This document shows positions 14,423 through 59,617 of a DNA stretch of 64,000 bases, piece by piece. This DNA comes from Amedibacterium intestinale. Lineage in GTDB: Bacteria > Bacillota_I > Bacilli_A > Erysipelotrichales > Erysipelotrichaceae. The stretch covers positions 2,356,001 to 2,420,000 of the forward strand of contig NZ_AP019711.1 in assembly GCF_010537335.1 (NCBI RefSeq). Direction: 5' to 3'. Position 1 is the first letter of the stretch. Each line of letters starts with the position of its first letter. The notes below the pieces were generated by a model that was not told the origin of the DNA, searched no databases, and saw only the letters and a list, made by a program, of their open reading frames with translations. Both the position numbers and the translations under genes were made by a program.

Positions 14423-14434
14423 AATAATGCTTTG

Positions 14435-31109: not shown

Positions 31110-31151
31110 AAAGACAGGAAAAATAAACCAATTAAGGAGGACATGAATAAT

Positions 31152-37797: not shown

Positions 37798-37822
37798 CCA
37801 ATGCGATCGCATTGGTTTTTTT
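37798..37822 (+). terminator. Terminator of the sugar ABC operon
   Basis: Perfect palindrome CCAATGCGATCGCATTGG (37798-37815) followed by TTTTTTT. Confidence 0.85.
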
Positions 37823-37831
37823 GGTATCATT

Positions 37832-37874
37832 TTTACATGTTTTTAACAAAACTTTTTTGATTTTTCTGTATAGT
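37832..37874 (+). promoter_or_regulatory. Putative PHO-box promoter of the Ppx/GppA gene
   Basis: TTTACA (37832) and TTAACA (37843) are direct repeats with starts exactly 11 bp apart. The -10-like TATAGT begins at 37869, 26 bp after the start of the proximal repeat. No good -35 is present, as expected for an activated promoter. Confidence 0.5.
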
Positions 37875-39546: not shown

Positions 39547-39562
39547 AAACAAAAGCCCCTTT

Positions 39563-39616
39563 CTTATACTCTTATTAAACTATGTATTTAAAAATAGAAA
39601 GTTAATAAATGGTTAA
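39563..39616 (-). promoter_or_regulatory. Putative PHO-box promoter of the response regulator gene
   Basis: On the minus strand TTAACC (39616), TTAACT (39605) and weaker TTTTTA (39594) start 11 bp apart; TATAAG (39568-39563) begins 26 bp after the last repeat start, the same geometry as at phnG and ppx/gppA. Confidence 0.45.
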
Positions 39617-39657
39617 AGATTGGACATATTTCTGATAAAAAATTTCTTGGCATTATT

Positions 39658-39736: not shown

Positions 39737-40159
39737 ATGAAAAGAAAAGAGCGAACAAAAATTCTGGTTCATTGTGAAAAAGAATTTTTACAGGCATGGG
39801 CAGATCGATTTGATAAAGAAGCACCCTATCAGGTATTAGAAAAACCATCCCAGTCTTTGACAATGGTAAAAATGAGAGAAAGTGCGCAGAAATCTTTATT
39901 TTATTTATGTGAAGTGTTGATTAGCGAGGCTCGTGTAGAATGCAATGGGGTTATTGGCATTGGAATGATACAGGGAATAGAGGAAGAAAAAGCATATGCA
40001 TTGGCAGTGATAGATGCCGCATTTCGTGCACAGCTTCCAGGTGTTAAAGAATTAGAAGAAGAATTAAGAAAGAAAGCAAAACAGCAGGAAGAAGAAATGC
40101 GTATTCGAAGAGAAGGAATTGAAAAGACAAAAGTAAACTTCGAGACGATGGATGTATAG
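39737..40159 (+). CDS. phnG: C-P lyase core subunit PhnG
   Basis: Small subunit of the PhnGHIJ core complex that, with PhnI, attaches the phosphonate to the ribose of ATP. The 140-residue protein begins MKRKERTKILVHCEKEFL and has the PhnG-typical GxVxIG-like core (FYLCEVLISEARVECNGVIG) and a helical LPGVKELEEELRKKAKQQEEEM C-terminal region. AGGAGG lies at 39726-39731. It is the first gene of the operon, with PhnH starting 11 nt after its stop. Confidence 0.9.
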   Translation: MKRKERTKILVHCEKEFLQAWADRFDKEAPYQVLEKPSQSLTMVKMRESAQKSLFYLCEVLISEARVECNGVIGIGMIQGIEEEKAYALAVIDAAFRAQLPGVKELEEELRKKAKQQEEEMRIRREGIEKTKVNFETMDV

Positions 40160-40170
40160 GAGGAATACTT

Positions 40171-40752
40171 ATGGAGTTGAATCAGGTACATGATATTCAA
40201 AAGGCATACAGGAAAGTGTTAAATACATTTTCTTATCCTGGGAAAATAGAATCTTTACAAGAAGAAATGAAACATTGTACGTATCAGATGGAATGTGGAA
40301 ATGCAATGCAGATCATGATGTATATGCTGCTGGATGCGGATACTTCTTTTTATATGGAAAGTACATCGATGAAGCTGGCACAGCGTTTTTCTAGATTAAC
40401 TTACAGTGTGCAAAAGGAAATAAAAGATGCATCCTTTGTATTTGTTACACTGGATAGTTTTGATAAGCTGGCAGGTGTTATTTCGAACAGTGCAATGGGT
40501 ACATTGGAAAATCCACAGCATGGGGCAACGATCATTGTAGAATGTGAGAAATTGCGAAAAGATGGGAATTTGTGTTTGAAAGGTCCTGGAATTCAGGGAC
40601 AAACGTATCTTGGGGTTGAGGGAAATGATGCATGGATATCTTCTCGACAGGAAAAAAATGCAGAGTTTCCATTAGGTGTGGATTTGCTTTTTGTGGATAA
40701 GGAAGGAAATTGTGTATCACTTCCAAGAACGACACAGATTGAAAGGAGATAA
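40171..40752 (+). CDS. phnH: C-P lyase core subunit PhnH
   Basis: Structural subunit of the C-P lyase core, PLP-transferase-like fold without PLP activity. The 193-residue protein contains the HDIQKAYRKVLNTFSYPGKI opening, a LMMYMLLDADTSFY-like segment and the GPGIQGQTYLGVEG region typical of PhnH. GGAGG precedes the ATG and phnI begins 3 nt after the stop. It is needed for stability of the PhnGHIJ assembly in E. coli. Confidence 0.92.
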   Translation: MELNQVHDIQKAYRKVLNTFSYPGKIESLQEEMKHCTYQMECGNAMQIMMYMLLDADTSFYMESTSMKLAQRFSRLTYSVQKEIKDASFVFVTLDSFDKLAGVISNSAMGTLENPQHGATIIVECEKLRKDGNLCLKGPGIQGQTYLGVEGNDAWISSRQEKNAEFPLGVDLLFVDKEGNCVSLPRTTQIERR

Positions 40753-40755
40753 TCT

Positions 40756-41853
40756 ATGGCATATGTAGCGGTAAAAGGTGGAAAAGAAGCGATTGAAGAA
40801 AGTATTGAGCGATTAAAATTAGAACGCTTAAAAGGTGGTCATGTTTTAGATGTAGAAGATATCCAAAGTGGAGAACGTCTTTTGGTAGATCAGGTCATGA
40901 GTGAAAGCTTTTTATACTCTCCTCAGCTTGCTTCTCTAGCCATCAAACAAGGGGAAGGCTCTTTAGAAGAAGCGGTATTCTTAATGCGTGCTTATCGTTC
41001 TACTTTGCCTAGAAATTATTATTCACTGACAGTGGAAAGTGATGATATGCGTATTGAAAGAAGGATATCTGCCGCTTTTAAAGATATTCCAGGAGGACAA
41101 ATCTTAGGTTCCTGTTTTGATTATAAGCATCGTCTGCTTGATTTTGATCTTCTTTTAGAAAAAGAAGAAGCGCTGGAAGAAATGCTGGCGCATTTTGAAG
41201 AAGCAGAAAAAAAACAGGGAAGCAGCGACTTGTTTCTTCCCAAAGTAAGTGATTATTTACGAAAAGAAGGTCTACTAGAGAAAGTAGAAAATAACGATAC
41301 TCCTCCAAAAGATGTGACAAAAGAAATTTTGACATTTCCTACTGTGCGAAGTGAACGCTTGCAGATATTAACACGTGGAATGACACAGACACTTATTTCT
41401 CTTGGGTATGCTTCTTTAAGAGGGTATGGAAGTGTACATCCAACCGTAGGAGAGCTTCGTGTAGGAAATCTAGGAATCTATGTGGCAGATCCTATGAATC
41501 CACAGGATGAGGAAGAAAGTTATTATATTGGGGATATTCGTGTAAGTGAAGTGGAAAGTTTAATACCACATACGATTACAAATCAAAATGGAGAATCGCA
41601 GCTGGAATTTCAAGTTGGCTATGGAATTGCATTGGGGCAAAATGAATCCAAGGCAATTGCGATGAGTATTTTGGATCGCTGTTTAGAAAGTGAAGATAAG
41701 AAATATGCGATAAATGATGAAGAGTTTGTTTTGTATCATATTGATTCGGTGGAGGCAACTGGCTTTATTTCTCATTTAAAACTTCCACATTATGTAACCT
41801 TCCAGTCAAAATTAAACAGTATTCGTAAAACGAAAGAGAGGAAAACGCAATGA
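40756..41853 (+). CDS. phnI: C-P lyase nucleosidase subunit PhnI
   Basis: PhnI displaces adenine from ATP with the phosphonate to give ribose-1-phosphonate 5-triphosphate, acting with PhnG, H and L. The 365-residue protein opens MAYVAVKGGKEAIEESIERL, a PhnI signature, and includes MRAYRSTLPRNYY, LQILTRGMTQTLISLGYASLRGYGSVHPTVGELR and a C-terminal HIDSVEATGFISHLKLPHYV stretch. A GGAGAT site overlaps the end of phnH, and its own end overlaps the phnJ start by 4 nt. Confidence 0.95.
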   Translation: MAYVAVKGGKEAIEESIERLKLERLKGGHVLDVEDIQSGERLLVDQVMSESFLYSPQLASLAIKQGEGSLEEAVFLMRAYRSTLPRNYYSLTVESDDMRIERRISAAFKDIPGGQILGSCFDYKHRLLDFDLLLEKEEALEEMLAHFEEAEKKQGSSDLFLPKVSDYLRKEGLLEKVENNDTPPKDVTKEILTFPTVRSERLQILTRGMTQTLISLGYASLRGYGSVHPTVGELRVGNLGIYVADPMNPQDEEESYYIGDIRVSEVESLIPHTITNQNGESQLEFQVGYGIALGQNESKAIAMSILDRCLESEDKKYAINDEEFVLYHIDSVEATGFISHLKLPHYVTFQSKLNSIRKTKERKTQ

Positions 41854-42701
41854 AACAGCACTATCATTATGCCTTTTTTGATGAAGGAAGCAAACGAGAA
41901 ATTCGAAGGGCAACACTAAAGGCAATCTGTATTCCCGGCTATCAAGTTCCTTTTGCGTCTAGAGAACTTCCTATCGCAAGAGGCTGGGGAACGGGAGGCT
42001 TACAGCTGACATTATCCTTATGTGGACATGGAGATCATGTAAAAGTGATTGATCAGGGAAGTGATGAAAGTGTGAATGCGGTTAGTATCAAAAACTTAAT
42101 TAGCGCTACAACCGATGTAAATATCGTAAGGAATACAGAGGAAGCTTCTTTAATTCAATCGCGGCATCGCATTCCTGAAGTTCCTCTTAGAGAGGATCAG
42201 ATTTTAGTACTGCAGGTACCAGAACCGGAACCTTTACGGGAATATGAACCAAGTGAAAGAAAAACAAAACAGTATCATGCGGAAAAAGAATATACAGGAG
42301 CATGGCTGCTGCTGTTTGAACAAATCATGAAATATGGATCGATGACAACAGGGGCAGATCATCCTGTAATGGTAAATGATCGCTATGTCATGGCACCTTC
42401 TCCAATTCCTAAATTTGATAATCCAAAAATGCATCAAAGCAAATCGCTCATTCTTTTAGGGGCCGGACGTGAAAAGAAAATTTATGCAGTTCCTCCTTAT
42501 ACTTCTATTGTATCTTTGGATTTTGAAGACTATCCATTTGAAGCAGAGCAGTTTCATGGAAAAACTTGTGCATTATGTGGTGCAGAACATGTATTTCTTG
42601 ATGAAATCATCCATGAGGAAGATGGCAGTGTCAGCTATCAGTGCAACGATACAAGCTATTGTTTAAAAAGAAGAAATGCACAGAGGGGAGAGTGTAAATA
42701 A
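41850..42701 (+). CDS. phnJ: C-P lyase radical-SAM subunit PhnJ
   Basis: Catalytic radical SAM enzyme that breaks the carbon-phosphorus bond of ribose-1-phosphonate 5-phosphate. The four [4Fe-4S] cysteines C240, C243, C265 and C271 follow the PhnJ spacing CX2CX21CX5C, one residue off the E. coli numbering, and the radical-forming glycine region IPGYQVPF (G30) is intact. The 283-residue length equals the family norm. It overlaps phnI by 4 nt and phnK by 1 nt. Oxygen sensitivity of the cluster suits an anaerobe. Confidence 0.96.
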   Translation: MKQHYHYAFFDEGSKREIRRATLKAICIPGYQVPFASRELPIARGWGTGGLQLTLSLCGHGDHVKVIDQGSDESVNAVSIKNLISATTDVNIVRNTEEASLIQSRHRIPEVPLREDQILVLQVPEPEPLREYEPSERKTKQYHAEKEYTGAWLLLFEQIMKYGSMTTGADHPVMVNDRYVMAPSPIPKFDNPKMHQSKSLILLGAGREKKIYAVPPYTSIVSLDFEDYPFEAEQFHGKTCALCGAEHVFLDEIIHEEDGSVSYQCNDTSYCLKRRNAQRGECK

Positions 42702-43540
42702 TGGAATTTGAAAAGCCGCTCATGCAGGTAAAAAACTTACGAAAACAGTTTGGAAATGGATGTATACACTGTATTGGAAAGGAAGAAGAACTGCAAGGGA
42801 ATTATTGTCCGCATTGTGGAACAGTGTATGCTTTGCGCGATATTAGTTTTGATGTATATGATGGTGAAATTCTAGGTGTTGTTGGGGAGAGTGGAAGTGG
42901 AAAATCAACCATGATGAAATGTTTGTATTTTGATCAGGATATTACTTCCGGGGCTGCTTATCTTTCCACCTATAAAGAGGGGAAAGTAAATATTTTTGAA
43001 GAAACATCACAGCAGAAGCGTTATATTCGAAATTATGTTATGGGGATGGTTTATCAAAATCCATACCTGGGATTGAAAATGGATTTTTCAAGTATTGGAA
43101 ACATTGCGGAAAAACTATTGGCAGCTGGTGAGCGAAATGTAGGAACCATGGAAGAAAGAGGAGTTCAGCTTTTGGATAAAGTAAAAATTCCATATCGAAG
43201 AAGAAAAGATGCACCATCTACTTTTTCTGGAGGGATGCAGCAGCGTGTACAGATTGCCAAGGCATTAAGCAATCGACCGCCTGTTTTATTGTTAGATGAA
43301 GTGACGACCGGACTGGATTTATCTGTACAGGCAAATGTATTGGATTTGATCAAGCAGATTCAGCGTGAACTAGGAGTGAGTATGATCGTGGTATCGCATG
43401 ATCTTGGTGTTATTCGCATGCTGGCAGATCGTACGATCGTTATGCTGGATGGAAAAATTATTGAACAGGGATTAACGGATCAAATTATGGAAGATCCGCA
43501 GCATCCATATACACAGCAGCTTGTATATTCATTGTTGTAA
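42701..43540 (+). CDS. phnK: C-P lyase ABC-type ATPase PhnK with cysteine-rich insert
   Basis: Non-transport ABC ATPase that binds the C-P lyase core. Walker A GESGSGKST, signature FSGGMQQRVQIAKA, Walker B VLLLDEVTTGLD and the switch His in VVSHDLGVIR are intact in 279 residues. Unlike E. coli PhnK, an insert near the N-terminus holds two CxxC pairs (C21, C24, C36, C39) like a zinc ribbon, just before the first beta strand after the ATP-binding A-loop. Start and phnJ stop overlap by 1 nt. Confidence 0.93.
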   Translation: MEFEKPLMQVKNLRKQFGNGCIHCIGKEEELQGNYCPHCGTVYALRDISFDVYDGEILGVVGESGSGKSTMMKCLYFDQDITSGAAYLSTYKEGKVNIFEETSQQKRYIRNYVMGMVYQNPYLGLKMDFSSIGNIAEKLLAAGERNVGTMEERGVQLLDKVKIPYRRRKDAPSTFSGGMQQRVQIAKALSNRPPVLLLDEVTTGLDLSVQANVLDLIKQIQRELGVSMIVVSHDLGVIRMLADRTIVMLDGKIIEQGLTDQIMEDPQHPYTQQLVYSLL

Positions 43541-43552
43541 AGGAGATGGGTT

Positions 43553-44728
43553 ATGAAACTTATTCGAAGAGGAAAAATTGTACTGGAACATGAAATTTTA
43601 GAAGGTTATGCATTAGTCATTGAACATGATCGTATCAAAGACATCATAAAGGAAGATGTGGCGGATGATTTGCATGTAGAGGAAGTCTTTGATGCTTGTG
43701 GAGGATATATAACACCGGGGTTTATTGATATTCATTCCGATTATATTGAAAAAATGGCTGCCCCTAGAAAAACAAGTGTGATGGATATGCAGCTGGCGGT
43801 GTATGAATTTGAAAAAGAATGCTGCAGTCATGGGATAACGACAATGTTTCATTCCGTAAGTATGCTGGATAATGAACTTGGAACTCCTATGCGCAATCCA
43901 GAAAATGTGAAAAAACTGGTCGAAATTATTGAAGAAAGTCATTCACAGCTTCACTTGATTCATAATCGTTTCCACATGCGTTTTGAAATTGATAATTTTA
44001 CACAGTTTCCTCTTATGATGGAATACTTAAAAAAAGGGTATGTGCATCTTCTTTCTTTTATGGATCATACCCCTGGACAGGGACAGTATCGAGATTTGGA
44101 AATATATAAGAAAACCTATCTTGTTGATGATAAGGGAACACGAAGTGAAGAAGAAATTGAAGAAATGCTGAAAGAGAAAATGAATACGCAGAAATTAACG
44201 ATGGATGCGATTCGATGTGCATCAGATTTAGCAAAAGAAAAGGAAATTGCGGTTGCTTCTCATGACGATGATACGATAGAAAAGTTAGATGTTGTACAGA
44301 GTTTTGGGGCAACGATTTCTGAATTTCCAATTACGTTAGAGGTAGCAAAAGAAGCAAAAAAACGTGGTATGTATACCGTTGTTGGTGCACCTAATATTCT
44401 TCTTGGCGGTTCTCATTCAGGAAATATGTCCGCAAGAGATGCCATCGAAGCAGGCTGTGCAGATATTTTATGTTCAGATTATTATCCGGCTTCCCTTTTG
44501 CATTCTGTGTTTAAAATGGAAGAATACGGACAAAAACTGGAAGATATGATTGCAAAGGTAACGATTCAGCCAGCACGTGCTGCACAAATCGATCATATTT
44601 GCGGTTCTATTGAAAAAAATAAAAAGGCAGATTTGCTGATTATCATGAAGCTGCCAAATGGACTTCCTGCCATTACCCATGTATTTGTAGATGGACAGTT
44701 GACCCAAAGAAATCATTATCGTATGTAG
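43553..44728 (+). CDS. phnM: PhnM triphosphate pyrophosphohydrolase
   Basis: Amidohydrolase-fold enzyme that removes pyrophosphate from ribose-1-phosphonate 5-triphosphate before bond cleavage. The metal motif FIDIHSDYIEKMAAPR (about residues 58-73) has the PhnM form HxDxxE, with later HTPGQGQYRD, ASHDDD and SDYYPASLL motifs. The length is 391 residues. AAGGAGAT precedes the ATG, 12 nt after phnK. Confidence 0.94.
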   Translation: MKLIRRGKIVLEHEILEGYALVIEHDRIKDIIKEDVADDLHVEEVFDACGGYITPGFIDIHSDYIEKMAAPRKTSVMDMQLAVYEFEKECCSHGITTMFHSVSMLDNELGTPMRNPENVKKLVEIIEESHSQLHLIHNRFHMRFEIDNFTQFPLMMEYLKKGYVHLLSFMDHTPGQGQYRDLEIYKKTYLVDDKGTRSEEEIEEMLKEKMNTQKLTMDAIRCASDLAKEKEIAVASHDDDTIEKLDVVQSFGATISEFPITLEVAKEAKKRGMYTVVGAPNILLGGSHSGNMSARDAIEAGCADILCSDYYPASLLHSVFKMEEYGQKLEDMIAKVTIQPARAAQIDHICGSIEKNKKADLLIIMKLPNGLPAITHVFVDGQLTQRNHYRM

Positions 44729-44740
44729 GAGGAGCAGGTT

Positions 44741-45361
44741 ATGGAATTAACACCGGAAGTTACGATTGAAGAAAGATGTGAAGTTAGCAATACCAGTTTT
44801 GGAAACTGGTGCAAAGTCGGGCATGATAGTGTGATTGAAAACTCTACTTTAGGAGATTATTCCTATTGTGAACCATATGGAATGATTCAAAATGCAAACA
44901 TCGGAAAGTTTTGTGATATTGCACGAAGTGCACGCATTGGCGCAACGCAGCATCCACTGCAAAGGCCGACAACGCATCATTTTACCTATCGCAGCAAAAT
45001 GTATCAGATGGCAGAGGAAAACGATACTTTGTTTTTTGAAGAACGCTGTGCAAAGATAACAAGCATTGGACATGATGTCTGGATTGGACATGGAGCGGTC
45101 ATACAGGCAGGTGTTCAGATTGGGAATGGCGCTGTTGTGGGAAGTAATGCAGTTGTGACCAAAGATGTACCACCCTATGCAATTGTAGCGGGAGTGCCTG
45201 CCAAAGTGCTACGCTTTCGTTTTCCACAGGAAATTATCGAACAATTAGAAACATTAAAATGGTGGGATTGGGAAGATGAAAAAATTCGTCAAAACTGGAT
45301 GGATTTTCGAATGGATATACATGCGTTTTTACGAAAATATGGAGGAAATAATGAAAAATAA
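44741..45361 (+). CDS. Hexapeptide-repeat acyltransferase of the phosphonate cluster
   Basis: Left-handed beta-helix acyltransferase found in many phn operons (chloramphenicol acetyltransferase/LpxA-like family). Hexapeptide repeats run from about residue 15 to 65 and again 108-160 (IGHDVWIGHGAVIQAGVQIG, then VVGSNAVVTKDVPPYAIVAG), and a C-terminal WWDWEDEKIRQ helix is typical. At 206 residues it has normal size. The substrate is unknown; acylation of an aminoalkylphosphonate to aid export or detoxification, as PhnO does, is one idea. It overlaps phnL by 11 nt. Confidence 0.85.
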   Translation: MELTPEVTIEERCEVSNTSFGNWCKVGHDSVIENSTLGDYSYCEPYGMIQNANIGKFCDIARSARIGATQHPLQRPTTHHFTYRSKMYQMAEENDTLFFEERCAKITSIGHDVWIGHGAVIQAGVQIGNGAVVGSNAVVTKDVPPYAIVAGVPAKVLRFRFPQEIIEQLETLKWWDWEDEKIRQNWMDFRMDIHAFLRKYGGNNEK

Positions 45362-46055
45362 AGAAAACCTGCTGGAAATTGAAGGATTATCAAAAAACTT
45401 TCAGATGCATTTAAATAAAAAAGAAATTCAAGCTTGTCAAAATATATCGCTAAATTTAAAAAAAGGAGAATTTATCGGTATTACGGGACGAAGCGGCAGT
45501 GGAAAATCTACGATCTTAAAGGGTATATATCGTACAAACCTTCCACAAAAAGGAACCATTTTATATCAAAGTGAGCGTTTTGGAGAAATTGATTTATGTA
45601 CGGCAAGTGAGCGTCAGATTCTTTGGATACGAAAACATGAGATTGGATATGTATCCCAGTTTCTGCATATCATGCCGCGAACAACCGCAAGAGAAGTCAT
45701 TGAAAATGCGGTTATGGAAATGGGAGAAGACAGAGAAAGTGCCCAGAAAAAAGCAATTCAAATGCTGGAGCACTTTGATTTGGATAAGGCGTTATGGGAT
45801 GTGTATCCAAATACGTTTTCCGGAGGAGAAAAACTGCGTTTGAACATTGCGGCGGCCATGGTAAAAAAACCACGTCTGTTATTATTAGATGAGCCAACGG
45901 CAAGTCTTGATAATGCAAGTAAGGAAAAAGTTCGAGATTTAATTGAACAGCTAAAAAAAGAAGGTACGACCATGCTTGGAATTTTTCATGATTTAGAATT
46001 TATGGAAGGACTATGTGATCGAGAATTTAATATGCAGAAAGGAATGCTTTCATGA
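45351..46055 (+). CDS. phnL: C-P lyase ABC-type ATPase PhnL
   Basis: Second non-transport ABC ATPase of C-P lyase, which assists PhnGHI. The start is the ATG at 45351 behind GGAGG; the long open frame upstream overlaps the previous gene. Walker A GRSGSGKST, signature FSGGEKLRLNIAAAMV, Walker B LLLLDEPTASLD and the switch His in GIFHDLEFM are present in 234 residues. It overlaps the PHP gene by 4 nt. Confidence 0.92.
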   Translation: MKNKENLLEIEGLSKNFQMHLNKKEIQACQNISLNLKKGEFIGITGRSGSGKSTILKGIYRTNLPQKGTILYQSERFGEIDLCTASERQILWIRKHEIGYVSQFLHIMPRTTAREVIENAVMEMGEDRESAQKKAIQMLEHFDLDKALWDVYPNTFSGGEKLRLNIAAAMVKKPRLLLLDEPTASLDNASKEKVRDLIEQLKKEGTTMLGIFHDLEFMEGLCDREFNMQKGMLS

Positions 46056-46888
46056 ATCAAATCGATTTACACATTCACAGTACGTATTCTGATGGAAGCT
46101 ATTCCGTTGAAGACATTATAAAAGAAGCACAAAGAAAACAGTTAACATGGTATTCTATTTGTGACCATGATACCTTTGCGGCATATGACAACTTGTCAAC
46201 ATGGCCCAAAGGACTTCTCATGGGAATTGAAATCAGTGCCCATGATGATCTTCATGGAAAAGATGTGCATATATTGGCATATGGGATGAAAGAAAGAGTG
46301 CATATTGAAAAACTTTGCGGATATACCTTAAAAAACATGGAAAAAATTGCGAAATGGCAGGTAAAACAGCTGATTGAAAATGGTTATGATATCACTTGGG
46401 AAGAAGTAAAAAGAAAAGCAGAACCTTCCACTTCTGTTTATAAACAGCATATTATGCAGGTGTTGATCGATCATGGCTATGCAACGGAAATTTATGGGGA
46501 GGAATACCATCAGCTGTTTAAAAATAAGGGAATCTGCATGCATAAAAAAGAATATCCAAAAGTAGAAGATGTGATAGAAGCCATTCATCAAGATCAGGGA
46601 GTTGCCATCCTTGCACATCCAAGATTAAGCCGTGTAGAAGCATTGATTAGTCATTTTATTCGACTGGGTGTGGATGGTATTGAAACATGGCATAGTTCTC
46701 AAAGTGAAGATGCGATTCGATACAGTCATTGTTTTGCATTGGCAAATCAATTGCTGGAGGTTGGAGGAAGTGATTGTCATGGGAAATATGGCAAGGAACC
46801 AGAAATTGGCAACAGCAATCCTTTGATGTGGGAAGGAGATGTAGAAGCATGTATTATGAAGTTTATGAACAGGCAAGAAAACTTGTAA
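46052..46888 (+). CDS. PHP-domain phosphodiesterase of the C-P lyase pathway (PhnPP type)
   Basis: PHP metal hydrolase, 278 residues. Metal ligands are LHIHSTYSDGS (H7, H9, D14), ICDHD, GIEIS, VHILAYG, AHPRL and GGSDCHGK. In other phn clusters without phnP, such an enzyme hydrolyses the cyclic ribose-1,2-phosphate 5-phosphate made by PhnJ to ribose 5-phosphate and phosphate; the assignment rests on that precedent and on position. The operon lacks phnP and phnN, which supports it. It overlaps phnL by 4 nt and the next gene by 40 nt. Confidence 0.82.
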   Translation: MNQIDLHIHSTYSDGSYSVEDIIKEAQRKQLTWYSICDHDTFAAYDNLSTWPKGLLMGIEISAHDDLHGKDVHILAYGMKERVHIEKLCGYTLKNMEKIAKWQVKQLIENGYDITWEEVKRKAEPSTSVYKQHIMQVLIDHGYATEIYGEEYHQLFKNKGICMHKKEYPKVEDVIEAIHQDQGVAILAHPRLSRVEALISHFIRLGVDGIETWHSSQSEDAIRYSHCFALANQLLEVGGSDCHGKYGKEPEIGNSNPLMWEGDVEACIMKFMNRQENL

Positions 46889-47607
46889 AGGAATGTGGAA
46901 ATATCTTAAAAACAAAAACGTATACCCATTTGGATTATAAAACTGGAAAACAGGATCTAGTTAGCGATATGGATACCTATATAGGAAATGTATTGAGTGT
47001 GTCGCTGATGAAACTGGTAGAAGGATCTATTGTGGTAAATGAGGAAGCCCAGCATCAGATGGGAGATTACATGTGGATATTAGATCCCATTGATGGAACG
47101 ACCAATTATGTATCCTTTCACGAAAATTTCGCAGTTTCACTTGCTTTTTATGTAAAGAAACAACCTGTTTTTGGCATTGTTTATGATGTGATGAAAGAAG
47201 AAATGTTTCATGCCTATACAGGAAAAGGAGCATTCTGCAACTCACAAAAACTTCTGCCTTTACCAGAGGTAACATTATCAGAAAGTGTATGGGATTGCAG
47301 TTATGGAAGTATTATAGATTTCACAAAGAAGCATGCAGATATGCTTTCTATACAAAAAGAAAGCAGGGGACATCGTGCGTTAGGATGTGCATCTTTGGCA
47401 ATTGCACATATAGCACAAGGAAAATTACAGGCATCACTTTCTTCTCATGTAAAATGCTGGGATTATGCAGCAGCCTGTATCTTGTTGAAAGAGGTAAATG
47501 GAACATGGCAGATACGAAATGATTTTTTCACAATGGAAAAAACAGAGGCAATCTTTTGCAGCTGCACTTCCTTGTTGAAGGAGATACAACGATATATACA
47601 AGAATAA
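46849..47607 (+). CDS. Inositol-monophosphatase-family phosphatase
   Basis: Mg-dependent phosphomonoesterase, 252 residues, of the IMPase/FBPase/CysQ superfamily. Motifs EEAQH (metal Glu pair), WILDPIDGTTNYV and CWDYAAACIL are intact. The start is the ATG at 46849 after GGAAGGAG; the longer frame runs inside the PHP gene. It is the last gene of the C-P lyase transcript and is followed by a terminator. A role in removing phosphate from a sugar or nucleotide by-product of phosphonate breakdown is likely, but the substrate cannot be told. Confidence 0.82.
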   Translation: MYYEVYEQARKLVKECGNILKTKTYTHLDYKTGKQDLVSDMDTYIGNVLSVSLMKLVEGSIVVNEEAQHQMGDYMWILDPIDGTTNYVSFHENFAVSLAFYVKKQPVFGIVYDVMKEEMFHAYTGKGAFCNSQKLLPLPEVTLSESVWDCSYGSIIDFTKKHADMLSIQKESRGHRALGCASLAIAHIAQGKLQASLSSHVKCWDYAAACILLKEVNGTWQIRNDFFTMEKTEAIFCSCTSLLKEIQRYIQE

Positions 47608-47608
47608 C

Positions 47609-47634
47609 GTTCCGGTTTTATCCGGAATTTTTTT
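47609..47634 (+). terminator. Terminator of the phnG operon
   Basis: TTCCGG (47610-47615) and CCGGAA (47622-47627) followed by TTTTTTT, just after the IMPase-like gene stop. Confidence 0.7.
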
Positions 47635-47649
47635 ACACAGGAGGCAGGA

Positions 47650-48054
47650 ATGAAAAAAATAATCGCAGTGTTTCTTCTGGTATTATGCTGTGGCTGTCAG
47701 AAAAATACATATCAAGGAGAAACCATCATGATGACATGGAAACAGGGATATGAAAAAATACAGCAGAAAGATGATTTTTTACTTTTGTTTACGCAAAGTG
47801 GATGTGATTCCTGTAAACAATTTCAAGCAATAAAAAGCAGCTATTTAAAAACACATAAAGAGACAATTTATGAAATAAATCTTGCACAGGAACATGATAC
47901 AAAACAAATACAGAGTTTTTTTCCACAATTAACACAAACACCGACACTGTACTATATAGAAGATGGAAATGTAGTATCTGTATTAGAAAAACCAGAAGAC
48001 AAAACGATGGAAGAACTAGCAAAATGGATACATACAAATGTTAAGAATCTATAG
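47650..48054 (+). CDS. Thioredoxin-like lipoprotein
   Basis: A 134-residue protein with a lipoprotein signal (MKKIIAVFLLVLCCG-C, Cys near 16) and a thioredoxin fold: the redox motif is QSGCDSCKQF, and the cis-proline loop is TQTPTLYYIEDG. It would face the outside of the membrane and act on disulfides there. A strong GGAGG site precedes the ATG, but a terminator separates it from the phn operon and its promoter is not obvious, so expression may rely on read-through. Its link to phosphonate use is only positional. Confidence 0.78.
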   Translation: MKKIIAVFLLVLCCGCQKNTYQGETIMMTWKQGYEKIQQKDDFLLLFTQSGCDSCKQFQAIKSSYLKTHKETIYEINLAQEHDTKQIQSFFPQLTQTPTLYYIEDGNVVSVLEKPEDKTMEELAKWIHTNVKNL

Positions 48055-48059
48055 TTTCC

Positions 48060-48124
48060 TTGTCATTTTGTTAACGTTTATTTTACAGCGTTAAAACAAA
48101 AGCATCAGTTTTATTTTCTATAAT
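48060..48124 (+). promoter_or_regulatory. Putative PHO-box promoter of phnDCEE
   Basis: TTGTCA (48060), TTAACG (48071), TTTACA (48082) and weak AAAACA (48093) start 11 bp apart. A perfect TATAAT (48119-48124) begins 26 bp after the last and 37 bp after the best repeat. No -35 hexamer is seen. Confidence 0.55.
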
Positions 48125-48160
48125 ATGCATGTAAACAAAGAAAGTTAAATGGAGGAAATT

Positions 48161-49126
48161 ATGAAAAAACTAATGCGTTTATGTATGGTAGCCATGTTAG
48201 GACTTGGGGTTATGACTGGCTGCAGTGAAGGGAAAGCAAAAGAAGAAATTACGATTGCATTTTTGCCTAATGAAACAGATTCACAGGCAAGTGAAGCTGC
48301 TTATGACATGTTGAAAGAGGAAGTGCAGGCAGCATTGGGAGATGGTGTCGAAGTAAAAGTAACACCACTAGATGATTACAATGCGGTTGCGGAAGCAATC
48401 TTAACAGGAACCGCAGATATCGCGTGGGAAAGTGGGGCAACATTTACTTCTGCGTATATGCAAAATGAAAATGTAGTGCCAATTTTATCTTATGGACCAC
48501 AAGGAGATCCAGAAAAATCAGGATACAATGCTTATATTGGTACAAATATCAAACATAAAGCCGATTTTGAAGGAAAAAGTGAAGAAGAAAAAATTGCACA
48601 GTTAAAAGGAAAATCCTTCTCTTTTGTATCTAGTACATCTACAAGTGGATGTGTCGTACCAACAACAACTTTCTGGAAGTTGTATGGACCAGATGGAACA
48701 AAAGAATTAACTAGCAAAGATCAGATTACAACAAAGACAAACAAAGAAGGCGGTTTCTTCTCTGAAGTGCAGTATGGAGGAGATCATCAGGGTTCTGTAG
48801 AACTGATTGCGAACGATAAAGTATATGCAGGTGCTTACTGCTGTACGTATGGGGATAAATACAAAGATGATTTATATGTAATTTCACAATCTTTTGTACC
48901 AAATGGACCAATGTGGGTAAATAAAGATTATATGGATCAGGAAACAATTGATAAACTGGTAGAACACTTTACAAATCTGACTTCAGAAAACGCAATCAAT
49001 AAAAACTTCTTTAATAAAGATGGCGGTTTCTTCTTTGAAGCAGAAGATGATCCATCAAACTACAAGTTCTTTAAGACAGATGTCGATCATTATAAATTCA
49101 TCATCGATATGTATAAAGATCAGTAA
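48161..49126 (+). CDS. phnD: Phosphonate/phosphate ABC transporter binding lipoprotein PhnD
   Basis: Extracellular binding protein that captures phosphonates, 321 residues. The start is the ATG at 48161 with GGAGG at 48152; an ATG at 48149 precedes that site. A lipobox GVMTG-C follows the signal peptide. The mature protein shows PhnD/type-2 periplasmic features: ITIAFLPNETD, GTADIAWESGATF and FVSSTSTSGCVVPTTTFWK. A palindromic stem follows the gene. The binding pocket specificity cannot be read from sequence, so phosphite or hypophosphite is possible. Confidence 0.92.
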   Translation: MKKLMRLCMVAMLGLGVMTGCSEGKAKEEITIAFLPNETDSQASEAAYDMLKEEVQAALGDGVEVKVTPLDDYNAVAEAILTGTADIAWESGATFTSAYMQNENVVPILSYGPQGDPEKSGYNAYIGTNIKHKADFEGKSEEEKIAQLKGKSFSFVSSTSTSGCVVPTTTFWKLYGPDGTKELTSKDQITTKTNKEGGFFSEVQYGGDHQGSVELIANDKVYAGAYCCTYGDKYKDDLYVISQSFVPNGPMWVNKDYMDQETIDKLVEHFTNLTSENAINKNFFNKDGGFFFEAEDDPSNYKFFKTDVDHYKFIIDMYKDQ

Positions 49127-49155
49127 GCAATAAAAAAGCAAATTTGATAAATGAT

Positions 49156-49174
49156 AGCTCTGCAATGCAGAGCT
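49156..49174 (+). promoter_or_regulatory. Intercistronic stem-loop after phnD
   Basis: AGCTCTGCA (49156-49164) and TGCAGAGCT (49166-49174) form a near-perfect palindrome followed by TCCTTTTAC. It is in the same position relative to the binding-protein gene as the stem at 32523. Confidence 0.55.
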
Positions 49175-49201
49175 TCCTTTTACAGGCAGGAGGAATTGCA
49201 A

Positions 49202-49999
49202 GTGGAAAAAGTTTTAGAGTTAAAACACGTAGCAAAGACATATGACAATGGTGTAAAGGCATTAAAAGATGCAAGTTTCTCTTTATATGAAGGAGAACTG
49301 ATTTCTATTATTGGACCTAGTGGAAGCGGAAAAAGTACCTTGCTTCGCTGTATCAATCGTATGATTGATACAACACAGGGAGAAATTCAATTTATGGGTA
49401 TGGATGTTACAAAAGCCGATAAAAAAGAAATTAAAGAAATACGAAAAAATATCGGAATGATTTTTCAACATTATAATCTGGTATATCGTTTAAATGTTTT
49501 GGAAAATGTTTTACATGGAAAGCTGGCATCTTACAGTACATGGAAAAGTGCATTAGGTATGTATAAGGAAGAAGATGTAGAAAAAGCAGTACAGCTTTTG
49601 GATATGCTTGGATTATCCGATCGCTTGTATACCAGATGTTCGGATTTATCTGGAGGACAGAAACAGCGTGTGGGAATCGCAAGAGCGCTTTTACAAGATC
49701 CAAAAGTTCTGCTTTGTGATGAACCGATTGCATCTTTAGACCCTCAATCAAGTAAAATTATTATGGAACATTTACATATGATTGCCAAAAAGATGAAGAT
49801 TCCATGTATCGTCAATCTTCATCAGGTGGATGTTGCGCTTCGATATTCGGATCGTATTATTGGAATGCATCAGGGAGAAATTGTATTTGAAGGTACACCT
49901 GCTGAGTTAAATGATGCAGTAATTGAGAAAATATATGGTGTTCCTGTACAGGAGCTGATTTCCAAGGTTGAACAGGTAACAGAAGGAGAATATGCATGA
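49202..49999 (+). CDS. phnC: Phosphonate ABC transporter ATPase PhnC
   Basis: ATPase of the phosphonate importer. The start is the GTG at 49202 (VEKVLELKHVAKTYDNG), 8 nt after AGGAGG; in-frame codons upstream lie within the stem-loop region. Walker A GPSGSGKST, signature LSGGQKQRVGIARA, Walker B VLLCDEPIASLD and the switch His in NLHQVDVALRY are typical of PhnC, the last being the PhnC-specific HQVD form. It is 265 residues long and overlaps phnE by 4 nt. Confidence 0.94.
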   Translation: MEKVLELKHVAKTYDNGVKALKDASFSLYEGELISIIGPSGSGKSTLLRCINRMIDTTQGEIQFMGMDVTKADKKEIKEIRKNIGMIFQHYNLVYRLNVLENVLHGKLASYSTWKSALGMYKEEDVEKAVQLLDMLGLSDRLYTRCSDLSGGQKQRVGIARALLQDPKVLLCDEPIASLDPQSSKIIMEHLHMIAKKMKIPCIVNLHQVDVALRYSDRIIGMHQGEIVFEGTPAELNDAVIEKIYGVPVQELISKVEQVTEGEYA

Positions 50000-50769
50000 A
50001 ATATTTAAAGAGGAAACGTATTCGCTATGCGATTATTCTAATAGGAACATTGCTGATTTTAGAAATATGCACGCTTCGTCTAGGGATTGAATGGTCTAGA
50101 ATTTTTACTGATTTTCATCGTTCTGTTTCTCGTTTTATGGACATATATCTTCCTATGGATTTTTCTGAATTATCTTCTCAGCTTTATCAGTTATGGGTAA
50201 CGATTATTATTTCTATCGCAGGTGCATTTGTCGGTATGATTTTTGCTTTTTTCTCTGCACTGTGTATTTCATCCAGTACCTCTAGCAATCTTGTTTTAAA
50301 ATATGTGGTACGTGCTTTAGCTTCTTTATCCAGAAACATACCGGAAGCTGTATGGGCAATCATTTTGATTCCTTGTTTATGGTATGGTGAATTTCTTGGC
50401 TTTCTTGTTATGTGTATCATCTCTTATGGATTTCTTACCAGAGCATTTGCCGATTCTATTGATGAAACGAATCGCAATGCGATGGAAGCATTGCAGTCCA
50501 CAGGTGCAAGTTACTGGCAGATCATCTTTCATGCAGTATTACCTGAAACGTTACCATCCTTACTTTCATGGAGCTTGTATGCAGCAGAGAATAATATACG
50601 TTCCGCAACCATTGTTGGTATGCTTGCTGGTGGCGGTATAGGATATTTGATTGGCATCTATAAAGGGTTTATGAAATATCAGCTGTTATGTACAAGTATT
50701 TTACTGGTGGTGATTGTGGTAATTGCTACCGATCAGATTTCAACACAAATTAGAAAGAGGATATTATAA
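49996..50769 (+). CDS. phnE: Phosphonate ABC transporter permease PhnE (copy 1)
   Basis: Permease of the phosphonate importer, 257 residues with about six membrane segments. The PhnE-typical ASLSRNIPEAVWAIILIP and the EAA loop NRNAMEALQSTGASYWQIIF are visible, with the C-terminal NNIRSATIVGMLAGGGIG motif. Start overlaps phnC by 4 nt; stop overlaps the second permease by 1 nt. Confidence 0.93.
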   Translation: MKYLKRKRIRYAIILIGTLLILEICTLRLGIEWSRIFTDFHRSVSRFMDIYLPMDFSELSSQLYQLWVTIIISIAGAFVGMIFAFFSALCISSSTSSNLVLKYVVRALASLSRNIPEAVWAIILIPCLWYGEFLGFLVMCIISYGFLTRAFADSIDETNRNAMEALQSTGASYWQIIFHAVLPETLPSLLSWSLYAAENNIRSATIVGMLAGGGIGYLIGIYKGFMKYQLLCTSILLVVIVVIATDQISTQIRKRIL

Positions 50770-51623
50770 TGGAAACAGTATTGGAAAAAACGCCCTCTAT
50801 TTCATTAGAAAGAGGCAAGAAGAAATATAAAATAAAGAAAAAAGATCATAGTCAGAAATATATTTGGGGAACCTTGTTTATATTTCTTGCGGCATTTGTC
50901 TATTTTGTATGCTTTATGTGTGAATATAAATGGGATCAGGTACGTCTTGACTTAGTACAAAAATTTGTTGGACAGTTTTTCGCAATTACAAGTGTGCCTT
51001 TAGAAAACTGGATAAAAATCTTTTCTACGTTACTTAATACACTTCTCTTATCGATTGTGACAACGATTGTATCGATTGTGATTGGTTTATTTTTAGGATT
51101 ATTTTCCGCAAGAAATTTATCGAATCCAATTCTTTGTACGATCATACGCGGGTTTGCCGGGTTTATCCGAGCAGTTCCTACGATTATCTGGGTATTGTTA
51201 TTTGTATCCGGTTTTGGATTAACAGCAACGACTGCACTTGTAGGTATGTGTTTTCACAGTGTGGCATATTTTATTAAATCGTATTCCGAAGCGTTTGAAG
51301 AAGTGAATGATGGGACATTGGAGGCATTGCGCGCAACTGGAGCAAGCTGGTGGCAGATCGTAATTAATGCGGTACTTCCATCTTCTTTTACAAGGTTGCT
51401 GTCATGGATTGCGATGCGAAGCGAAATGAACTTTGCGGCTGCAGTTGTCATCGGTCCAGCAGTTGGTGTGCCTGGTACCATTGGTTCATTAATCAATAAA
51501 TGTGGACGTGAAGGGAATTATGCATTCATGGGTGCTTGTATTTTAATGATTATACTTGCTGCACTAGCATTTGAACTTTTTATTACTCGATTTAAACAGA
51601 AATCAATCGTTAGTGAAGGATAA
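50769..51623 (+). CDS. phnE: Phosphonate ABC transporter permease PhnE (copy 2)
   Basis: Second permease of the same importer, 284 residues, with a longer, basic N-terminus (KKKYKIKKKDHSQKY) before the first membrane segment. RAVPTIIWVLLFVSGFG and the EAA loop VNDGTLEALRATGASWWQIV match PhnE. Two PhnE proteins per operon are common in Firmicutes and act as a heterodimer. It is the last gene of the unit; no standard terminator follows at once. Confidence 0.93.
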   Translation: METVLEKTPSISLERGKKKYKIKKKDHSQKYIWGTLFIFLAAFVYFVCFMCEYKWDQVRLDLVQKFVGQFFAITSVPLENWIKIFSTLLNTLLLSIVTTIVSIVIGLFLGLFSARNLSNPILCTIIRGFAGFIRAVPTIIWVLLFVSGFGLTATTALVGMCFHSVAYFIKSYSEAFEEVNDGTLEALRATGASWWQIVINAVLPSSFTRLLSWIAMRSEMNFAAAVVIGPAVGVPGTIGSLINKCGREGNYAFMGACILMIILAALAFELFITRFKQKSIVSEG

Positions 51624-51632
51624 AACAGATTT

Positions 51633-51684
51633 GTAACAAGAACATAACAGAATTGTAAAAAATATTTTATAAAAAAGGTATAAG
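51633..51684 (+). promoter_or_regulatory. Possible PHO-like repeat array with -10 element
   Basis: GTAACA (51633), ATAACA (51644) and GTAAAA (51655) start exactly 11 bp apart, differing from the TTAACA type at the first base or two. TATAAG (51679-51684) lies 24 bp after the last repeat start. Confidence 0.35.
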
Positions 51685-52034
51685 ATATAGACAGACAGGG
51701 AGATAAAACTCTGTCCTCCAATAAAAAGCAGTGATCTTTAAAAGAAAGAAACTGACTTTTTCCTTTTCCTAAAAAAAATTATGCTTTAAGAAGATGCATG
51801 TGATACTACATGCGACAAGCAAAAGATGTATTTCTTCAATGGTTAGAAGGAATACATCTTTTGCTGTTGTGGAAAGTTTGTTAAAGGATTTGCAGTAGGC
51901 ATTATCAACTTTAACAGGTAGTATCCATCGATGAAGAGGAATATAGTATTGGATAAGATAGATTTTTATTAGTTAGAATCAATGTATCAGAAAAATTATT
52001 TCATACGCAGGAGATATTATAACCCAAAACAAAA

Positions 52035-52058
52035 GAGGAAACTTAAGCAAATTTCCTC
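52035..52058 (-). terminator. Terminator of the toxin-antitoxin pair
   Basis: Minus-strand GAGGAAA and TTTCCTC arms (52058-52052 and 52041-52035) followed by TTTTGTTTT. Confidence 0.65.
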
Positions 52059-52090
52059 CTATCAATAAGTTTATACATGTAGAAATAACT

Positions 52091-52417
52091 CTATAAATCA
52101 TTCTTCTTGATACGTTTTTCTGCTATAGAATAAACTTCTTCATCTTCTCTAGCTCCAATAACCACAATTAACATTCTATCTTCTTGCTTAATGACTTTAT
52201 ATACCAACCTTAGTCCAGATGCTCTTAATTTGATTTTCAAGAACCCAGTTAAATCCGTATTTCCTTTTTTCCCAAGCAATTTTCCATAACCACCCTCTTG
52301 TTGTGATAATGGATTCTTTCTCACTTTTTCGATTGATTTTAATACTAATTTTCTTTGACTTCCATCAAGTTCATCCAAGTCATCAAGTGCTTCTGGTAAA
52401 TATTTAACATCCCACAT
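52091..52417 (-). CDS. RelE/ParE-superfamily toxin
   Basis: Toxin of a type II module, 108 residues, starting MWDVKYLPEALDDLDELDGS. The RelE/ParE fold is supported by RKLVLKSIEKVRKNPLSQ, GYGKLLGKKGNTDLTGFLKIKL, and SGLRLVYKVIKQEDRMLIVVIGARE, whose RLVYKV strand and arginines are typical of the mRNA-cleaving YoeB/RelE branch. Its start overlaps the antitoxin stop by 1 nt (TAATG), so it is made only if the antitoxin is translated. It is probably a ribosome-dependent mRNase; gyrase inhibition (ParE) is less likely. Confidence 0.85.
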   Translation of the reverse strand: MWDVKYLPEALDDLDELDGSQRKLVLKSIEKVRKNPLSQQEGGYGKLLGKKGNTDLTGFLKIKLRASGLRLVYKVIKQEDRMLIVVIGAREDEEVYSIAEKRIKKNDL

Positions 52418-52740
52418 TATTCGAACTCAATATCATCACAATCTTCTAAATCAGAAGCTGTAATTCCATATCTTTTCATAACATCTTCATGTGACACAAG
52501 TTTGTTTGCATCATATTTTTCCATTCTTTCATTAGCTAAAAGTAGAAGTTTTGCATCATTGACCTGATCAATTAAAGCAATATAATCTTCTGGTGACAAA
52601 AGAACACATTCAGGTTCATTATTTTTCATAACAATTTTAGCACCATGTTTTTTGACTTCATCAAAAATTTTACCAGCCATTCCGCGATTAAATTGTGAAA
52701 TTGGAACAGTACTTTCTAAAATTGTTCTAATCATATTCAT
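52417..52740 (-). CDS. Phd/YefM-family antitoxin
   Basis: Antitoxin that neutralises the following toxin and, with it, represses their promoter. It is 107 residues long, with the Phd/YefM DNA-binding N-terminus (ISQFNRGMAGKIFDEVKKHG and VLLSPEDYIALID) and an acidic C-terminal tail (DLEDCDDIEFE) that should cover the toxin. The start is taken as the ATG at 52740; GTG at 52749 overlaps the GAGGTG site. Confidence 0.85.
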   Translation of the reverse strand: MNMIRTILESTVPISQFNRGMAGKIFDEVKKHGAKIVMKNNEPECVLLSPEDYIALIDQVNDAKLLLLANERMEKYDANKLVSHEDVMKRYGITASDLEDCDDIEFE

Positions 52741-52761
52741 GGCATTCACCTCTTTATTTAT

Positions 52762-57309: not shown

Positions 57310-57825
57310 AAAGCAGAGGATATTTTCCTTCTTTATGATTGCAGATGTATTTATGAATTGTTTATAGTTAATTTGTATTTTGGATTTGTAATGAAAACAT
57401 AGTATGAAAAGAATAATGATAATCTCATTTTTTTATATATGATTGAGTTTCCCAGTAAGTGATTTCCAATGTAGGGATTATTTTTATCTAAAAGATGTTT
57501 GGTGAAAGATAAGATGAACAACAAAAGTATGAAAATTTAGTCTTTATAGAATGTCTGTTTTGATTTTAATAAAGATTGGTTCCATAAAATATCAAAGCTT
57601 TTCTACTTTTTTATGTTTTTTTTCTATGTTTTTTTGTATTTTTACCTATTGGTTTCGTATATGTATAGTGAAAAGGATAAAGTGTATCCAATCATGCTTT
57701 CCATATATCACGATATCGGTATAGACAAACAATATTCTTATTTTATAATGAAGATGGATATCTCTTATCTTTCCTTCATCAATATTATATCCGATCAAGA
57801 AGTATCAAAAGAGGAGCTGATGAAT
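57310..57825. other. Long AT-rich region upstream of the Rpn-type gene
   Basis: I see no gene, tRNA or repeat here. An open frame from 57613 continues into the Rpn gene, but its first 71 residues are hydrophobic and low-complexity and lack a ribosome site, so the region is more likely a leader, decayed coding sequence or the 5' flank of a mobile gene. Confidence 0.4.
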
Positions 57826-58824
57826 ATGGGAAAACAGGATATCGGACTAAAATCTTATTTCAAAAATAATGATCGCTTTGCGGATTTAATTAACACAGGC
57901 ATATACAATGGTATACAGGTTGTTAAACCTGATGATTTGGAAGAACTGGATACGGATTCATCGCTGTATATCCATACGCAGGGGATGAAGATTCCCCTTG
58001 CAAGAGTAAGAGATGTCATTCGAAAATCTGCAGGAGACTGTGAATATGTGATTTATGGGGTTGAAAATCAATCCAGTATCCACTATGCAATGCCTTTGCG
58101 TGTGATGATGTATGATACTTTGACCTATGAAGCAGAATGCAGACAGTTTGTAAATGCGAGAAGAAACAGGAAAGACAGTGAATATCTTTCTAAAATGCGA
58201 AAAAAGGATCGTATTCATCCAGTATTCACACTAGTCATATATTATGGAGAAGCACCATGGGATGGGGCAAGAAGTCTGAAAGACATGATGGTGGATATGC
58301 CGAAATGGATGGAAAAAAGATTCAATGACTATCCTATGAAGCTGCTGGAAATAGGAACCTGCACAAATACATTTCAAAATCAGGATATCTTCAATTTCAT
58401 AAAGATCATACAGCTTTTATACAGTGATAAAGTAGAAGAACTGCAAAGGTATTATGCGAATGTAAAAGTAGGAAGAGATACAGCAGAACTGGTAGGAACA
58501 ATAACGGAAAATGAAGAAATATTAAACTATGTAAAAGAACATAAAGATGAGGAGGAAATCAACATGTGTGAAGCAACGAAGAGATGGGAACAAAGATGGA
58601 CACGAAAAATTACAGATGGATTCATCAATATGATGGGAGTAAGAAAAGAAGGAGAAGAAAATCTTGCACCTGAAGAAGCAATTGAAAGATTAAAACTAAA
58701 AGAAAAAATAGAAGGTGAAGCAAATGGAGAACAAAACAAATCAATGGAAATAGCAGAAAAAATGAAGGAAAAAGGATATTCTACAAAAGAAATAGAAGAA
58801 CTAACAGGAATCCTTCTACATTAG
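57826..58824 (+). CDS. Rpn-family PD-(D/E)XK nuclease / transposase-like protein
   Basis: Protein of the Rpn (recombination-promoting nuclease) group. The start is the ATG at 57826 (MGKQDIGLKSYFKNNDRFAD), 9 nt after GAGGAG; the family start FADLINTGIYNG is intact. Nuclease residues are in the DCEYVIYGVENQSSI segment (E and Q of ExQ) and the PVFTLVIYYGEAPWDG stretch is typical. The C-terminal region (EAIERLKLKEKIEGEANGEQ through KGYSTKEIEELTGI) is helical and repeats in the copies downstream. These genes are numerous in gut Firmicutes. The length is 332 residues. Confidence 0.75.
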   Translation: MGKQDIGLKSYFKNNDRFADLINTGIYNGIQVVKPDDLEELDTDSSLYIHTQGMKIPLARVRDVIRKSAGDCEYVIYGVENQSSIHYAMPLRVMMYDTLTYEAECRQFVNARRNRKDSEYLSKMRKKDRIHPVFTLVIYYGEAPWDGARSLKDMMVDMPKWMEKRFNDYPMKLLEIGTCTNTFQNQDIFNFIKIIQLLYSDKVEELQRYYANVKVGRDTAELVGTITENEEILNYVKEHKDEEEINMCEATKRWEQRWTRKITDGFINMMGVRKEGEENLAPEEAIERLKLKEKIEGEANGEQNKSMEIAEKMKEKGYSTKEIEELTGILLH

Positions 58825-58836
58825 AATTACATACGA

Positions 58837-58870
58837 AAACCTCTTTGTATGCTTATATACGAAGAGGTTT
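58837..58870 (+). terminator. Terminator of the Rpn-type gene
   Basis: AAACCTCTT (58837-58845) and AAGAGGTTT (58862-58870) with inner GTAT/ATAC pairing. A similar CCTCTT/AAGAGG stem follows the next fragment (about 59241-59268). Confidence 0.6.
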
Positions 58871-58903
58871 CAATTACAATTTTATAGAATAAGTAGAGTA
58901 ATA

Positions 58904-59223
58904 ATGAAAAACAAAGAAATCATAAGGTATGCGGAAAAACATAAAGAAGAGGAGGCACTTAATATGTGTGAAGCAACGAAACAGTGGGAAGAAAAAATAA
59001 GAAATGATGTTATCAACATGATGGGAGTAAGAAAAGAAGGAGAAGAAAACCTTGCACCAGAAGAAGCAATTGAAAGATTAAAAACAGAAGGAGAAGCAAA
59101 AGGAAAGGCTGAAGGTATTCTTGAAGGAAGAGAAAATGAAAAAATAGAAATAGCAGAAAAATGAAGGCAGAAGGATTTGACAATGCTTTGATTGAAAAAC
59201 TAACAGGAATTCTTTTACATTAG
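58904..59223 (+). pseudogene. Truncated, frameshifted copy of the Rpn 3' end
   Basis: It repeats the last 110 or so residues of the preceding gene (CEATKQWEEKIRNDVINMMG, then VRKEGEENLAPEEAIERLK, ending LTGILLH). One A is missing from a homopolymer: six A's before the TGAAGG of the parent (58757 area) are five here (59157-59161), which creates a stop at 59162 and puts the last 20 codons out of frame. The N-terminal nuclease region is absent. It is a dead fragment, apparently from tandem duplication or recombination. Confidence 0.8.
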
Positions 59224-59617
59224 AATTACATACAGAAGCCTCTTTGTGTATATTCAGATGAAGAGGTTTCATTTTTAGTACGTTATAGAAGAAGTAGAAT
59301 AAAAATGCATATACAGGAAATGTTTGATTGAGAAACTAACTGAAACCCTTCTGTATTAGACTTTACATACAAAACGTATCTTTATGCGGTTTTAATATTC
59401 AAAATAGTTGAGATAAACTTAATTGAAATTTTGAAAAAATTGAATTGGAAATAGGTAGATTTGTCTGACCACTTGGCTTGGCTCATTTTTGTTGCTTTTA
59501 TAACTTTTTGATATACATTTTATTAAAATTTTATGATATTCGAATCATTTTTCTTGTGCCTATGATTAAGATTATAGAAAGTGTGCTATAATCAAGTTCT
59601 ATGAAATAGGGGATTGT
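59224..59617. other. Gene-free region with a further decayed Rpn remnant
   Basis: The segment around 59329-59375 again resembles the Rpn 3' end and its flank (GAAACTAACTGAAACCCTTC, then a TACATAC stretch), a third, more decayed copy. The remainder is AT-rich with no gene seen; a TATAAT at 59587-59592 lies before the MATE gene. Confidence 0.5.

Follow-up and report, generated by a model that had tools for sequence, protein, structure and literature searches.

The phn operon of Amedibacterium intestinale analysed here lies on the plus strand of the window, by which we mean the whole stretch of 64,000 nucleotides under study, and closes with a phnE-type permease gene whose stop codon is at 51621-51623. 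It is followed by 467 nt without a recognisable gene (51624-52090), up to a ParE/Phd-like toxin-antitoxin pair on the opposite strand, which bears out the roughly 400 gene-free nucleotides reported in an earlier reading of the letters (hereafter, the sequence-only reading). The antitoxin match of this pair is slightly below the Pfam cut-off, and the pair, which separates the phn operon from the plus-strand genes that follow, is possibly a recent arrival. The interval is framed by the following features:

39737-51623, plus strand: phn operon, with PhnG (PF06754) at 39737
50769-51623, plus strand: phnE-type permease, last gene of the phn operon (PF00528, E 3.1e-19)
52033-52060: terminator-like hairpin of the toxin-antitoxin pair itself, from a consensus terminator scan
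52091-52749, minus strand: ParE/Phd-like toxin-antitoxin pair, next to the right of the operon (Pfam)

The three plus-strand frames of the interval, translated with stops masked, matched no Pfam family at E values up to 1, a test whose power is limited by the shortness of the frames. Similarly, a search of the whole window with Rfam at the gathering threshold returned two tRNAs only and no family at this interval.

The Pho-type array at the phnE stop codon

An array of 11-bp direct repeats begins at the very end of phnE and is followed by sequences resembling a -10 element. These features, together with a second array of the window used for comparison, are:

51619-51662, plus strand: Pho-type operator of four 11-bp units, GATAAAACAGA TTTGTAACAAG AACATAACAGA ATTGTAAAAAA, recognised with genome-trained matrices
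51679-51684 and 51681-51686, plus strand: overlapping -10 candidates TATAAG and TAAGAT
37807-37874, plus strand: Pho-type array before the exopolyphosphatase-like gene at 37907, fourth-best three-unit site in the window

By direct reading, the units follow each other in 11-bp steps at 51622, 51633, 51644 and 51655, with the cores TAAAACA, GTAACA, ATAACA and GTAAAA, respectively, the first overlapping the phnE stop codon. The three repeats of the sequence-only reading (51633, 51644 and 51655) are thus confirmed and a fourth is added at 51622; with an earlier matrix, the register starting at 51633 scored 8.8, versus 13.2 for that starting at 51622.

Arrays of similar type are found in the same genome upstream of phnG, phnD, ppx, pstS and a Na/Pi cotransporter gene, the ppx label being taken from the look of the protein rather than from a family search. 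Two of them match the three-unit pattern perfectly, namely the phnG promoter in the window and the start of the Na/Pi cotransporter gene (L031, named from a reading of its protein), whereas weaker arrays precede phnD and the exopolyphosphatase-like gene in the window and pstS elsewhere. With a matrix built from the phnG, phnD and two Na/Pi sites, the three-unit array after phnE scored 14.8, compared to 17.2, 11.1, 21.2 and 21.9 for the training sites when left out, and it ranked third among the three-unit sites of the window, after phnG and phnD and before ppx. In Markov sequences matched in length and local composition, the three-unit score was reached in 8 of 3000 cases and the four-unit score in a single one of 3000. 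A second matrix, derived from five promoters, gave 46 null positions out of 3,999,935 at or above the score of the array, i.e., about 0.005 per region. When array and -10 sequence are taken jointly, about 0.15 sites are expected across the intergenic sequence of the window. The 11-bp direct repeats of the stretch thus follow the unit consensus of this genome more closely than chance would give, as expected of a member of the Pho regulon, and the operator is probably real, though not beyond doubt at the scale of the window.

These scores come from hand-picked training sites, and one of them, the second Na/Pi site (L034), belonged to the training set of the first matrices and was left out of the second. 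With the second matrix, two true sites fell below the post-phnE array when left out (ppx 7.0, pstS 1.5), so that the matrix is poor at discriminating weak sites. The call of a promoter is also blurred by the A/T-richness of the sequence, since a minus-strand site on the same bases, pointing into phnE, obtained a slightly higher total than the plus-strand array (14.2 vs 13.6). The simpler pattern of three TTWAC repeats with up to two mismatches was rejected as a detector: it is unspecific (135 matches in the genome vs 232 for the reversed control) and shows four mismatches, by manual count, at the post-phnE site in the register of the sequence-only reading. Matrices were used instead for these reasons.

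Two further arrays were observed in passing. A minus-strand array at 39574-39641 (array 17.0, total 19.3), with a TATAAG near the expected place, faces a response-regulator gene (38857-39552, minus strand) and is divergent from the phnG promoter. This regulator, which may itself be Pho-controlled, has a good DNA-binding domain and a receiver domain at 24.7 bits vs a Pfam cut-off of 30.2; no sensor kinase gene was seen adjoining it. The other is the strong four-unit array of L034 (1501-1540), located between genes that look, from their proteins, like a Na/Pi cotransporter and ybeY, and oriented away from the former.

As for the core promoter, the TATAAG announced downstream of the repeats is present (51679-51684) and lies 16 nt from the last unit, the overlapping TAAGAT lying at 18 nt. 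In five aligned Pho promoters a TATNNT stands 18 nt past the last unit, in registers chosen by eye; since these registers were set so as to have a TATNNT at that distance, the rule is in part circular, most of all for ppx, pstS and the Na/Pi gene. TAAGAT, which is in register, scores -1.5 with the -10 matrix of the other promoters and is thus weak, whereas the better-looking TATAAG comes 2 bp early. Transcription would start at 51691 or 51693, and it is at the promoter that the small-RNA reading is weakest.

Hairpins and the end of the phn mRNA

Downstream of the -10 candidates, the interval contains a succession of predicted structures:

51694-51715, plus strand: 5' stem-loop GACAGGG-AGATAAAA-CTCTGTC, seven pairs (-9.0 kcal/mol for 51693-51725)
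51715-51722, plus strand: linker CCTCCAAT with CCTCC, complementary to the Shine-Dalgarno sequence, unpaired from 51716 in the ensemble
51723-51770, plus strand: terminator-like hairpin 1, AAAAAGCAGT...ACTGACTTTTT then CCTTTTCC, weak
51796-51813, plus strand: small hairpin GCATGTGATACTACATGC (-8.3 kcal/mol, z -4.0 for 51785-51815)
51818-51872, plus strand: 20-bp hairpin AGCAAAAGATGTATTTCTTC/GAAGGAATACATCTTTTGCT (51818-51865) with its tail

The several hairpins noticed earlier hold up, as the region 51624-51900 is more structured than its shuffles (z -7.95). Most of this signal comes from the 20-bp hairpin; without it, 51624-51815 still reaches z -3.7, and 51691-51785 reaches z -2.8. The 20-bp hairpin has an 8-nt loop and folds at -28.3 kcal/mol for 51816-51868 (z -9.5, with none of 200 shuffles as low). 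Its 3' side reads CTTTTGCTGTTGT, with four T close to where the 3' arm ends, and the U tract past this arm is interrupted (CUUUUGCUGUUGU); a run of at least five T in eight bases is absent after the full stem (GTTGTGGA) but present if the stem ends before TTTTGCTG. Since A/T-flanked hairpins of 19, 24 and 15 bp end other genes of the window (at 14434, 29293 and 58837, respectively), the 20-bp hairpin is probably a second, imperfect terminator rather than a special element. The sequence-only reading was therefore correct on the stem itself, only partly right on its lack of a poly-T tail, and probably mistaken in setting it apart from ordinary terminators.

Hairpin 1, which that reading did not mention, is nearer to the array. 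It folds at -8.9 kcal/mol for 51724-51765 and at -6.0 for the core (51729-51760), and A and U tracts end its arms, followed by CCUUUUCC; as a terminator, it combines a U tract with a weak core. Neither hairpin 1 nor the 20-bp hairpin was listed by the consensus terminator scan of the plus strand.

Two observations concern hairpins in their own right. The 20-bp hairpin was considered as a genomic repeat or mobile-element end and rejected as such, its only match in its own genome, at the limits used, being at this place. Further along the plus strand, part of the end of a gene (57613-58824) recurs in the short frame after it (58904-59164), and similar hairpins follow both of them (58837-58870 and 59235-59270), so that 57613-59270 looks like a partial duplication.

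Among 60 genomes, and in a separate search of two genomes of the genus, a full-length match to the region was found in its own genome only, and the same held for an 83-nt core among 315 genomes of the order and for the hairpin part among 145 genomes of the family. Genomes with any match, its own included, numbered 8 of 60, 21 of 315 and 4 of 145, the other matches covering about 20-60 nt, and the contexts of three short matches (L098-L100) were unlike the region. Plasmid records gave no match, and phage records a single one of 48 nt, in a Bacillus phage (E 3e-3). The phnE gene itself was found in eight of the 145 genomes of the family, including its own, with at most 49% identity elsewhere. 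The stretches after phnE in the seven other genomes showed, by eye, no comparable arrangement: a plain terminator in L017, L019 and L023, a leader-like stretch before a leucyl-tRNA-synthetase-like gene in L018, further phn genes in L020 and a phosphatase-like gene in L021 and L022. Scans of genome contigs yielded 273 pattern stretches for phnE, with no relative among them, and 13 stretches for the stem-linker pattern, all inspected by eye and none with this arrangement; three of the 13, from Lachnospiraceae, share one palindrome and four, from two Opitutales genomes, are other palindromes, and all 13 were treated as chance. Conservation of the stems in relatives, proposed earlier as a check, therefore finds no support, no relative of the region being present in the collections searched, and covariation is not countable because the region is known from one sequence only.

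What is observed at this locus is thus an array, a set of predicted folds and the absence of a recognisable gene. An ordinary operon end could well account for them, and we give this explanation substantial weight, short of an even chance: phnE would be followed by tandem terminators and by 3' structures that stabilise the phn mRNA, and the array overlapping its stop codon would be there by chance or be transcriptionally inert. The long A/T-flanked hairpins closing other genes of the window, the off-register core promoter and the lack of conservation in the genomes searched all agree with it, as does the report, in the available part of a study of E. coli, that inert PhoB sites are frequent outside promoters (PMC10294691). 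However, it leaves aside that the array has about the strength of true promoters and that it sits upstream of a -10-like sequence, pointing into a gene-free, structured stretch.

A relic promoter appears rather unlikely. The array would have once driven a Pho-regulated gene, lost or replaced on arrival of the toxin-antitoxin pair (52091-52749), an idea suggested by the phosphatase-like gene found after phnE in two relatives (L021 and L022) and by the worn look of the core promoter. On the contrary, the phosphatase-like proteins of these relatives gave chance-level tblastn hits only (E 3.3 and 8.9), and the masked frames are devoid of Pfam matches; a remnant of a lost gene in the 467 nt was accordingly dismissed, as neither tblastn nor Pfam left a trace of one. 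A small protein is very improbable, as the 34-codon frame opened by the ATG at 51794, though open and on the right strand, has no well-spaced ribosome-binding site by eye, crosses a hairpin and, like the three masked plus-strand frames, all of them short, matches no Pfam family, so that no coding function is apparent, as expected of a small RNA.

A candidate phosphate-responsive RNA and its likenesses

We tentatively favour a Pho-activated small RNA as the best single explanation, with an ordinary operon end close behind and its own probability somewhat under one half. The predicted molecule is:

51693-51770, plus strand: predicted short RNA of about 75 nt, with a 5' stem-loop, an open CCUCC linker and a terminator-like hairpin (-19.2 kcal/mol; both ends predicted)

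Phosphate starvation would switch on a PhoP-type promoter at the end of the phn operon, and a short non-coding transcript, some 75 nt long, would run from 51691 or 51693 to around 51770. The 5' stem-loop lies one to three bases past the predicted start, beginning at nucleotide 2 if this start is 51693; it would be followed by the unpaired CCUCC linker and by the A/U-flanked terminator hairpin. A stem-loop, an open linker and a terminator form a common small-RNA layout. Readthrough past hairpin 1 would be stopped at the 20-bp hairpin, giving an RNA of about 180 nt. No terminator lies ahead of this sequence, so that the phn mRNA would also have it as its 3' end, and the molecule would belong to the 3'-UTR-type small RNAs while having a promoter to itself. 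The Pho-controlled regulatory RNA of the sequence-only reading is thereby retained in part: a Pho-type operator does precede a structured non-coding stretch, but the most probable RNA is a shorter one, ending ahead of the 20-bp stem. The activity of the promoter, both ends of the RNA and any target or effect are put forward here on the basis of the sequence.

The likely action would be for the CCUCC linker to cover the ribosome-binding sites of target mRNAs. Pairing was computed against the start regions of the genes of the window, of pstS and of the two Na/Pi genes, and the best was with the start of a solute-binding-protein-like gene at 31143 (-16.4 kcal/mol); this value was equalled by 26 of 200 shuffled linkers, so that no target signal emerges from this set. 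The median pairing is better than that of the shuffles (reached by none of 200), which reflects CCUCC against ribosome-binding sites and nothing more. A more speculative proposal, by analogy with iron-sparing RNAs, is that a lineage-specific PhoP-induced RNA, encoded where the phn operon ends, covers ribosome-binding sites with its CCUCC linker and so shuts down dispensable translation, sparing phosphate in a bacterium that is Firmicute-like by its gene content; we regard it as improbable.

If real, this would be a small RNA of the Pho regulon, placing phosphonate uptake and RNA control under one signal. Known so far from one genome and as a prediction, it is a modest lead rather than a discovery. 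The literature searched, in its available parts, lists little RNA work for this lineage, and the genome's set of Pho arrays offers a direct route to testing the small-RNA reading.

Among known systems, FsrA and RsaE/RoxS are Gram-positive small RNAs with C-rich target-binding stretches that respond to iron or redox signals. The predicted RNA resembles them by its terminator hairpin and by an open, C-rich stretch whose sequence is the complement of ribosome-binding sites, but its signal would be phosphate instead of iron or redox, and it has no Rfam match. Promoters with Pho boxes, bound by PhoB or PhoP, are made of 11-nt direct repeats that differ in sequence and affinity within one bacterium, according to the available part of one source (PMC4415409). 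Like them, the post-phnE site has a -10-like sequence preceded by four 11-bp units whose core is TAAC-like, and arrays of the same type stand ahead of phn, pst and Na/Pi genes in this genome; it is unlike them in that its -10 is either 2 bp out of register or weak and that no coding gene follows. In E. coli, EsrL is termed a phosphate-induced small RNA and was proposed to be PhoB-controlled (cited in PMC10294691), although PhoB was not detected upstream of it in that study, as far as its available part goes. Both EsrL and the predicted RNA are thus small RNAs proposed to be under Pho-type control, EsrL coming from an unrelated bacterium and being likened by description only. Finally, intergenic small RNA candidates of Sinorhizobium meliloti are up on phosphate starvation, and those induced had no evident conserved PhoB site upstream, in the available part of the report (PMC2573895). 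There, transcripts were found with no evident PhoB site, whereas here a Pho-type site is present and the RNA is predicted from sequence alone.
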